Below are positions 30,262 to 54,085 of a DNA stretch of 64,000 bases, piece after piece (positions within the stretch are counted from its first letter, which is position 1; every line of letters starts with the position of its first letter). The notes under the pieces are model-generated. The model was given only the letters and a program-made list of their open reading frames with translations. It was not told the origin of the DNA and searched no databases. Position numbers and translations under genes: made by a program. The stretch is from an uncultured Bacteroidia bacterium (GTDB taxonomy: Bacteria > Bacteroidota > Bacteroidia > Bacteroidales > UBA932): assembly GCA_902780935.1 (NCBI GenBank), contig CACZHP010000009.1:1-64000 (forward strand), given 5' to 3'.

Positions 30262-31464
30262 CTATTTTTGACGAAACTTGTGATATTCATGGACAAGGCT
30301 GCGGTAGCCGAGAGACTTGAGATCCTCGTAACTGGCCCGGTAGTTGGCTTTGTTATGCTTCCCGGTCGATAGGAAACGGATGTTGTCCTGAAGATAGTGG
30401 TCGATTTCCCCCAGGCCTTCCGCAGAGTTGATCACAGGGAAGAACCATCTCGACCATGAGAGTGTCTCCGGATCATCGCCTTCGAAGAACTTGGCGTTGA
30501 AGCAATTGATCATGGCCTTCATGGCCTGGATCCTGGGTATTCCTTTTTTTGAAGCCCAACGATCAAGGGATCTCGCTTTACGACTGATCTTCCCTTTCAT
30601 CTTTTTGATCGTCACTGTTGAAACCCCTATCTTCTTCCCGTCGCTCCGGAAGCCTAGGAACTCATACGGCTCTCCGGGTCGGTAAACATGCTCCTTTTCG
30701 GGATTGACCTCCAGGCGAAAACGGGAAAAGAAGTCCAACAACAATGATTTATATTTCAGAAGTTCTTCATAATCAGAGGCGAACAGGATAATGTCATCGG
30801 AATAACGCGCATAAAGGACACCTTCCCTTTCGAAGAAATGATCGACCTCCATCAGATAGACATCGGCCAGGAACGGAGCGGTGGGCGTCCCTGCCATCAC
30901 TCCCCTGTTCTCCCTGATAACCGCACCTCCACTCAAAGCACGGTCATCCTCCAAAAGCCTCCCGAAAAACGAATACAACTCCGGATCATCTCCGAGTACG
31001 TCCTTGAGGATGGGCATCAGGATGGGGATGGAGATAGAGTTGAAATAATCATGGATATCGACCTTGTATGCCCATAAACTCTTCCCGCCCAATGACTTGT
31101 TTATCTTGAAAATGGCGTCGCAGGCCCGCATTCCACGGCGGAATGAGTAGCAATTCGAGGCGAAACGGTCGTCATAGCGATAAAGGAGATAGGAAATCAG
31201 CTTCAAGACAGCCTTCTCGCCCGGTGGAAACTGATAGACAACGCGTTTCTTTCCCGAACCCATCTTGTTGATGACGGTCCTGACCGGGATTCCGAGGCCT
31301 CCTTCGCCGCAAGCGCGCCTTGCGGCTGGCAGATAGCTCTCCTCCTCGACGAACTCATCCGCCTCCTCGAAAGAATGCCAAGTGAAACGACCCTTACGCA
31401 GACGATGAGCCAGGAAGTCGTCCCAGACTCCCTGACTCATAATCTGGCCCATTATGCTTTCCAT
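30262..31464 (-). CDS. Stand-alone RNA-directed DNA polymerase (reverse transcriptase), unclassified
   Basis: About 400 residues with the ordered RT blocks. There is a fingers region (VVYQFPPGEKAVLKLISYLL; CYSFRRGMRACDAI); catalytic block KVDIHDYFNSI with Asp 136; block 4 VMAGTPTAPFLADVYLMEVD; block 5 YARYSDDIILFA with YSDD and Asp 223/224; block 6 LEVNPEKEHVY; block 7 YEFLGFRSDG; and a thumb-like C-terminus. All catalytic aspartates are intact. It lacks the endonuclease and maturase parts of a group II intron, the SQ motif of diversity-generating RTs, and an obvious retron VTG block. ATGs at 31464 and 31452 are both possible starts. The 150 bases upstream are rich in hairpins. RTs of this kind can be phage-defence enzymes; that is inference here. 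Confidence 0.9.
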   Translation of the reverse strand: MESIMGQIMSQGVWDDFLAHRLRKGRFTWHSFEEADEFVEEESYLPAARRACGEGGLGIPVRTVINKMGSGKKRVVYQFPPGEKAVLKLISYLLYRYDDRFASNCYSFRRGMRACDAIFKINKSLGGKSLWAYKVDIHDYFNSISIPILMPILKDVLGDDPELYSFFGRLLEDDRALSGGAVIRENRGVMAGTPTAPFLADVYLMEVDHFFEREGVLYARYSDDIILFASDYEELLKYKSLLLDFFSRFRLEVNPEKEHVYRPGEPYEFLGFRSDGKKIGVSTVTIKKMKGKISRKARSLDRWASKKGIPRIQAMKAMINCFNAKFFEGDDPETLSWSRWFFPVINSAEGLGEIDHYLQDNIRFLSTGKHNKANYRASYEDLKSLGYRSLVHEYHKFRQK

Positions 31465-31614
31465 CCGATAAAAGGAAAAAGGGGAATGATTTTGAATCAG
31501 CAAAATTGCTGATCACGAGACCGTACAACGCCCTGCAGCCCGTAATGCCTTCAATGGGCGATGCTGGATCCTCCACGGGCGCGGCTCCAAAGGCCGCATC
31601 CCCTTTTCCCTGGA
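31465..31614 (-). other. Hairpin-rich gap upstream of the reverse transcriptase (possible structured RNA)
   Basis: The 150 bases between a small unknown gene and the RT contain several self-complementary segments. There is an 18-base near-perfect palindrome (31496-31513, ATCAGCAA and its complement), GCGGC/GCCGC (31581-31597) inside a closing GATGC/GCATC pair (31560-31600), and GCCC/GGGC (31538-31559). CTGGATC occurs twice, at 31564 and 31610. No convincing protein is encoded. The place and size would suit a leader or a noncoding RNA used by the RT, but a plain structured 5' leader is equally possible. Confidence 0.4.
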
Positions 31615-35015: not shown

Positions 35016-35152
35016 TAGCTGAAGGAACCTGTCACCACCAGGAACCACTGCCACCCTCGGCACGTTAAGAGGGGGGACCGGAGCGTCGCTTGCGACGCGA
35101 GCGGTGGGGCCGCGAAGCGGCGGTTCTCGGTGGTGACAGGTTCCTTCAGCTA
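35016..35152 (+). repeat. Structured intergenic element, copy A (137 bp, perfect 24-bp outer stem)
   Basis: The arms at 35016-35039 and 35129-35152 are perfect inverted repeats of 24 bases. The interior holds GAACC/GGTTC, the conserved block CCACCCTCGGCAC, TAAGAGGGGGGACC, an inner hairpin CGTCGC/GCGACG and GCCGCGAAGCGGC. The core is shared with copy B (38203-38328, minus) and copy C (53973-54085, minus), but the outer stems are different sequences. It starts 9 bases after the prenyl synthase stop and ends 6 bases before the end of the GH13 gene on the other strand, so it may end both transcripts. Confidence 0.88.
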
Positions 35153-38202: not shown

Positions 38203-38328
38203 GGCAGGACACTTCATCCCCGGACCGCCGCTTCGCGGCCCCACCGCTCGCGTCGCTTCGCTCCGCTCCGGTCCCCCCTCTTACAGTGCCGAGGGTGGCA
38301 TGGGTCCGGGCGACGAAGTGTCCATGCC
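38203..38328 (-). repeat. Structured intergenic element, copy B (126 bp)
   Basis: Same core as copy A but on the minus strand. The outer stem is built from GGACACTTC/GAAGTGTCC and CCCGGACC/GGTCCGGG with a small internal loop, plus GGCA/TGCC. It starts 25 bases after the stop of the SusG-like gene and lies 36 bases before the ATG of the GH13 double-domain gene. It may therefore reduce or tune transcription between these two enzymes. Confidence 0.85.
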
Positions 38329-53972: not shown

Positions 53973-54085
53973 AAGTAAGCCCCTATCACTTTCCGAACCG
54001 CCGCTTCGCGGCCCCTCCCTAAAGGGTCCCTCCCTCTTAACGTGCCGAGGGTGGCAGTGGTTCTGAAAATGATAGGGGCTTACTT
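53973..54085 (-). repeat. Structured intergenic element, copy C (113 bp, shortened core)
   Basis: Arms AAGTAAGCCCCTATCA (53973-53988) and its exact complement (54070-54085) form a 16-bp outer stem unlike those of copies A and B. The core in minus orientation keeps GAACC...CCACCCTCGGCAC, TAAGAGGG and GCCGCGAAGCGGC. The middle arm around GGAGCG...CGAGCGGTG is lost and replaced by a short GGGACC...AGGGAGG hairpin. It lies 61 bases downstream of the GH2 stop and 11 bases from the glyA stop. Confidence 0.85.

Follow-up and report, generated by a model that had tools for sequence, protein, structure and literature searches.

Rickettsia palindromic elements (RPEs) and related elements of Wolbachia are dispersed palindromes of about 105-150 bp that lie between genes and also in frame within conserved protein genes, where a peptide is encoded (PMC10969869, PMC2229807). 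The portions of these two reports on which we draw identify no agent that moves RPEs (PMC10969869, PMC2229807). Long inverted repeats are also subject to a replication process of their own. As described in the sections of the literature used here, polymerase switching between the arms of an inverted repeat homogenises the arms and inverts the spacer, also in coding genes (PMC8604942), and template switching can make and mend stems and invert loops (PMC8794818). The published spacer inversions in yeast, as given in the part of that report consulted here, involve changes of 2-5 bp, far shorter than the interior of the element described below (PMC8604942).

The window analysed here, a 64,000-nucleotide stretch from an uncultured Bacteroidia bacterium, contains three copies (A, B, and C) of a folded DNA repeat that has spread through one genus of gut Bacteroidales. 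The repeat is a dispersed palindrome of about 100-150 bp, and like the RPEs it occurs both between genes and in frame within conserved protein genes. On balance, we lean toward the view that A, B, and C are copies of a palindromic element of this genus that is dispersed, apparently mobile, and non-autonomous, that works like RPEs, and whose stems are probably regrown, kept complementary, and flipped by template switching. The element lacks the shared ends of RPEs and has a pseudoknot core, making it a variant of that kind and not a member.

Copies in the window and their distribution

An earlier note, made from the letters of the window alone, had described copies A, B, and C as intergenic elements with a conserved interior and self-complementary outer arms. 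All three were found at the positions and on the strands that it gave (Table 1), and the complementarity of the arms was confirmed from the letters: 24/24 in copy A, 17 pairs (9+8 flanking a small mismatch) plus 4 in copy B, and 16/16 in copy C (53973-53988 with 54070-54085). An inverted-repeat search on A, B, and C returned repeats of 36 nt (89%), 15 nt (87%), and 32 nt (88%). The fold of copy A was computed at -93.3 kcal/mol versus -54.3 +/- 4.0 in 200 shuffles (z -9.8); none of the shuffles was equally low, so the folding is not due to chance. Elsewhere in the window (30262-31584, minus strand), we observed a gene for a 413-aa reverse transcriptase (RVT_1), whose upstream end bears an RT-5 RNA (Rfam RF03026, 77.3 bits).

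Table 1. Positions of the three copies in the window and of the structural parts of copy A
Feature	Position	Strand	Remarks
Copy A, whole element	35016..35152	+	between converging polyprenyl synthetase gene and GH13 gene
Copy A, left outer arm, 24 nt	35016..35039	+	pairs with 35129-35152
Copy A, right outer arm	35129..35152	+	pairs with 35016-35039
Copy A, core	35041..35127	+	match to model R1; copy A is itself in the R1 alignment
Copy A, pseudoknot helix S1	35047..35065	+	35047-35052 ACTGCC with 35059-35065 (GGCA, bulged C, GT); first two pairs covary among copies
Copy A, pseudoknot helix S2	35054..35073	+	35054-35058 CCCTC with 35069-35073 GAGGG; invariant within main subfamily
Copy A, hairpin 2	35077..35105	+	ACCG..CGGT, inner part variable
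Copy A, hairpin 3, short form GCCGCGAAGCGGC	35109..35121	+	
Copy B, whole element	38203..38328	-	core 38221-38308; between two same-strand GH13 genes
Copy C, whole element	53973..54085	-	core 53994-54064; between converging glyA (SHMT) and GH2 beta-galactosidase gene

The 13-mer CCACCCTCGGCAC occurred 29 times in the 3.05-Mb genome of the window versus once for the backwards pattern. A covariance model search that scored 150 of 862 first-look candidates found at least 36 copies in this genome; because the model searches scored 150 such candidates per genome, these copy numbers are lower bounds. Among 61 genomes examined, the 13-mer was present in 13 of 37 from the same genus and in 1 of 24 others. 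Single matches among these may be due to chance, as the backwards pattern matched 7 of the 37 same-genus genomes, and the match in G038 stood without the remaining core. A 25-letter core pattern found at least 114 stretches in the collection searched, and the 80 listed are from Bacteroidales or Bacteroidia genomes, many of them ruminant-derived. The same single pattern gave 0 matches in one viral collection, the IMG/VR viral contigs.

A copy was defined by the presence of a TAAGAGGG-like stretch, with 60 bases upstream also needed in the analysis of arms and in later analyses. From 245 pooled copies, 235 had the flanks for an arm-swap test and 202 for an open reading frame (ORF) test; stem mismatches, the behavior of arms in flips, and clustering were analyzed in 150 copies with a stem score of at least 10.

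The earlier statement that no named family fits was upheld as regards Rfam: at gathering score, none of A, B, C, and eight loci with further copies of both subfamilies described below matched any Rfam 15 family. Six weak Rfam matches on copy A at a relaxed threshold were all far under their cut-offs and were dismissed. The strand order of HDV-like and other known ribozymes presumably does not fit the element. In a scan of five host proteins against NCBIfam, which probably includes RPE models, no match to an RPE protein domain was detected at E values up to 1. Among the titles and abstracts seen in searches of open-licence papers, there was no Bacteroidales case of such an element.

Other repeats were also observed at or beside copies. 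At L278 (7870-7952), a different dispersed repeat of about 83 bp adjoins a copy and has many 80-95% matches in the relatives searched. A short REP-like repeat, GATYCTTCGCTTCGCTCAGRATGACA, and its variants lie at or near element sites, including the L277 site in G066 (L355), the left flank of L005, and the right flank of L019.

Pseudoknot core and paired changes

The conserved interior reported for A, B, and C was confirmed, and it contains a pseudoknot that was absent from the earlier description. The core consists of an H-type pseudoknot and two hairpins, all inside a long closing stem, in the 5'-to-3' order of closing stem, two variable bases, TGCC, A, CCCTC, GGCA, C, two variable bases, TAA, GAGGG, two hairpins, and closing strand. 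The pseudoknot is formed by XXTGCC pairing with GGCA(C)X'X' (S1) and by CCCTC pairing with GAGGG (S2). The two leading X bases of S1 were complementary in 195 of 213 copies and comprised eight pair types, and seven copies in G033 have lost, in frame, three bases forming part of S1. S2 is invariant in the main subfamily and therefore gives no covariation there.

The earlier note had suggested that a covariance model be built and covariation tested. In an alignment of 73 cores that we selected from 169 distinct ones, 210 cells were double-changed versus 74.4 +/- 6.5 in shuffled alignments, and controls with slid partners gave at most 32. Pairing was retained in 94.5% of the cells versus 81.8% after shuffling, and a measure of further pair types showed no excess in these 73 cores (22 versus 22.5 in shuffles). 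Template switching yields an identical pattern, and we consider it unsafe to take these paired changes alone as proof of selection on an RNA or on its structure.

A second subfamily, CGTGGCC-G-CCCGT-GGCCACG-TGA-ACGGG, has the identical order of parts and its own outer stems. Copies of it were present in 9 of 12 genomes, and G013 had 11 of them and none of the first kind; the background of this search was three unrelated-looking matches among 134 N-free matches in 2.2 Mb. S1 of this subfamily also shows paired changes (CG/CG, CC/GG, CA/TG, and TG/CA) and has a T.T mismatch in 17 of 36 rows, and one copy has a paired change in S2, with CCCAT opposite ATGGG. At the start of one contig (L404, first 700 bases of G013:C2), three second-subfamily copies stand in tandem about 305 bp apart.

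We hold a broader proposal tentatively, as possible and somewhat doubtful. A genus-wide clan of mobile elements may have a folded single strand as its only fixed part, with the H-type pseudoknot and the two hairpins occurring in two or more sequence versions, and may be defined by this fold and not by terminal repeats. Such elements would spread via the fold and land in terminators or genes without breaking them, and they would be without fixed ends because replication would rebuild the ends from the flanks.

Outer stems, orientation, and empty sites

Across 235 copies, the helix formed by a copy's own arms had a median score of 16.1 versus 5.4 when the right half was taken from another copy, and 84% of these copies exceeded the 95th percentile of the swapped-arm set. 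The arms of A, B, and C had been described as unrelated sequences, which applies to most sites and not to all: the stems of the 150 copies with clear stems fell into 76 clusters, the largest of which contained 28. Members of this largest cluster have additional inverted repeats, specific to each site, outside the stem that they share. We found no family-wide terminal inverted repeat among the 150 copies, and the ends are the least conserved part of the element.

Flanking sequences defined 44 orthologous sites with two or more copies, covering 139 of the 245 copies. At 26 of the 44 sites, both orientations of the core were present, and comparisons within sites gave 110 pairs alike and 86 reversed with no inconsistency. 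For example, site A has the same orientation in G066 and the reverse in G017, and site B is reversed in G066. Among 15 reversed pairs with related stems, we asked whether positions that distinguish the two arms had turned together with the core. Within 18 bp, 32 had and none had not; at 18-24 bp the counts were 4 and 3, and farther out 0 and 4. What turns is the core plus the greater part of its arms, about 18-24 bp on the inner side. Homogenised arms and an inverted intervening segment, as produced by template switching, are both seen at orthologous sites.

Presence and absence at orthologous sites, including empty sites, bear out the earlier suggestion that the element is mobile. As a second idea, the earlier note had proposed a mobile element that goes into the loop of a hairpin already present and takes over the old stem as its ends, and had named a plain terminator hairpin with the same outer stem at an empty site as support. 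In the form considered here, the mobile part is the core alone, and the hairpins that it enters are chiefly terminators. At site C, the sister species G066 has just such a terminator hairpin, a stem-loop followed by a T tract, with the outer stem of copy C; at the L014 site, G066 has a perfect hairpin of 10 bp with a one-base loop, and the empty aroC site contains a weak TTGGT..ACCAA palindrome. However, a core in the same orientation, with a different stem, stands at site C in the more distant G017, so G066 may have lost it, and loss is as possible there as insertion. Furthermore, seven sites (A, B, L004, L229, L182, L222, and L277) have an empty ortholog without the stem, including A in G033, B in G017 and G073, and L277 in five genomes, and the inner arms flip along with the core. 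On this mixed evidence, we regard insertion into pre-existing hairpins as unlikely. The empty ortholog of L277 in G066 contains another short repeat, and the orthologs of L267, L226, and L231 retain one arm or a fragment.

Filled and empty sites indicate how stems may arise under the RPE-like reading that we favor. The empty aroC site reads TTTGGT-GGCGACC, and the left side of the filled site reads TTGGTCGCC, with a new CGCC that complements the right-hand GGCG. At L229, the flank GCTTCA is matched in the filled site by TGAAGC gained on the opposite side, and one pair position of this stem is T-A, A-T, or C-G in three species. After insertion, the stem would lengthen by the copying of one flank, inverted, to the opposite side. 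Switching of DNA polymerase between the arms during replication may then keep the stem perfect or flip it. With one such process, no selection on the stem itself would be needed to explain why arms are site-specific, why they change in pairs, and why copies flip. The nearly invariant core would be kept by selection on a folded single strand, either RNA or single-stranded DNA, or would be rewritten from other copies.

We also considered that the element could be a conventional MITE or REP-type repeat mobilised in trans by a host insertion-sequence or Y1 (RAYT-like) transposase. The size and palindromy of the element would suit such a repeat, as would candidate 4-bp target duplications (TGGT, GCTT, and CTAG) noted by eye at three sites, which are ambiguous because the flanks themselves are copied. 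All seven carriers examined had Y1 transposase genes. In the genome of the window, rsmA contains a variant copy situated about 1 kb upstream of a Y1-transposase-like gene, on one side only (L330 123-2334, G000:C17), a proximity that may be due to chance given some 36 copies and three Y1 genes. However, Y1 genes were also present in five of eight genomes without the 13-mer, and three of the four Y1 loci read, among 33 matches listed, had no copy nearby, giving no clear link to a Y1 mover in this examination of the Y1 family. Together with the lack of a shared terminal repeat and the poor conservation of the ends, these findings make this alternative very unlikely in our estimation.

A further alternative is a functional structured RNA (or single-strand DNA) family that host selection keeps at each site, e.g., for messenger stability or termination, and that spreads only rarely. 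The 23-nt core averaged about 97% identity where flanks were 75-85% identical, with 119 of 149 pairs identical, a conservation that is partly an artefact of finding copies by core letters. Decayed copies were few: when three mismatches were allowed in four carrier genomes, 76 of 97 matches were exact. Mismatches in the stems, read on the strand of the element, were G.T more often than A.C (126 versus 66, in 38 versus 11 stem clusters), and this lean was the same whether copies lay outside genes or in host genes of one direction or the other. This lean hints at a folded strand of element sense, with mutation bias as an alternative source. Against selection at each site, the flips at 26 of 44 sites mean that one-sided transcription cannot require one strand, presence differs among species, about half of the copies lie in ORFs of unrelated genes, and the G.T excess may be mutational. 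We thus judge this alternative distinctly unlikely. The earlier suggestion of a structured RNA under selection is borne out in its conserved structure, to which both the double changes and the core identity point; the folded molecule may be RNA or single-stranded DNA, and the paired changes can also stem from template switching.

Copies within genes and comparison with known systems

The description of the element as intergenic is correct for A, B, and C and fails for about half of all copies. In the set of 202 copies with 1 kb on either side, analyzed with no control set, 107 were inside a spanning ORF of at least 250 codons that ran at least 30 codons past the element; some of these 107 may be spurious, 15 of them being in other frames than the main two. 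One frame per strand was used by 92 of the 107 (51 of 58 forward and 41 of 49 reverse), and by site, 33 forward and 26 reverse were in these main frames versus 7 and 8 in other frames. Pfam domains were detected in 13 of 14 host ORFs scanned from the genome of the window. Host genes identified by Pfam included those for chorismate synthase, LytB/IspH, PurH, RsmF, 2-oxoacid dehydrogenase E2, GH3 glucosidase, methionine synthase (MetH), TrmO, and GHMP kinase, as well as FtsK, a periplasmic binding protein, and a MATE transporter.

In aroC, the filled gene of the window's genome encodes 42 in-frame residues more than the empty gene of G066, which reads PLVATKRP at this point, with flanks 92-96% identical. 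In the MATE transporter gene (L024 in G000 and L268 in G066), the right half of the element has been lost and the frame is still open. Copies in coding and noncoding locations also differ in structure, as the short form of hairpin 3 was found in 44 of 95 copies outside long ORFs versus 4 of 107 inside. Loop length modulo 3 favored one class in coding copies (30 of 46, with 33, 26, and 25 for the others), which is no proof since the arms vary. These data suggest that core enzymes of these gut bacteria may contain insertions of some 40 amino acids, 42 in the case of AroC, that originated in a mobile hairpin and are read in one of two possible frames.

Two gene sites have a more complex organization. 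In aroC of G017 (L239), a copy lies beside an apparent remnant of an older, turned-round copy, and by eye the copies seem to be nested. In purH of G066 (L264), a different repeat occupies the place where the window's genome has the element, suggesting that some sites within genes are hot spots for several different repeats.

The dozens of orthologous sites in present, absent, same-way, and turned-round states provide a natural, many-copy test of how long hairpins originate and persist, and a tree would allow events of arm rewriting and inversion to be located and counted. They also warn against taking paired changes alone as proof of selection for structure. The pseudoknot core is a new target for the study of structured nucleic acids in mobility.

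Among known systems, palindromic repeats of Volvox organelles differ in that they are plain hairpins of lesser length, have a motif in common, and reside in organelle genomes. The coding palindromes of Nematomorpha mitochondria, in the part of the report considered here, are like our element in that long inverted repeats are kept in translated genes, and differ in that both arms are host protein sequence with no mobile core (PMC6649704). The small MITEs ERIC/RU-1, RUP, and Correia/NEMIS share its size and hairpin transcripts, and some have ORFs fused in genes; however, as far as the portion of the source used here describes them, they have family-wide terminal inverted repeats, several with TA ends, whereas our element has none (PMC2229807). 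RPEs reside in another phylum and, in the passages drawn upon, have a terminal repeat of 12 bp, in contrast to the element, which is without a fixed terminal repeat (PMC2229807). The pseudoknot core, the flips at orthologous sites, and the two coding frames, one per strand, may also set the element apart from RPEs. Quasipalindrome template switching is a mutation process and not a mobile element, and the spacer inversions reported for it, in the sections of the work consulted, are much shorter (PMC8604942). Yet, to the extent that these sources describe it, template switching is like the element in homogenising arms, inverting the spacer, and creating stems, also in coding DNA (PMC8604942, PMC8794818).
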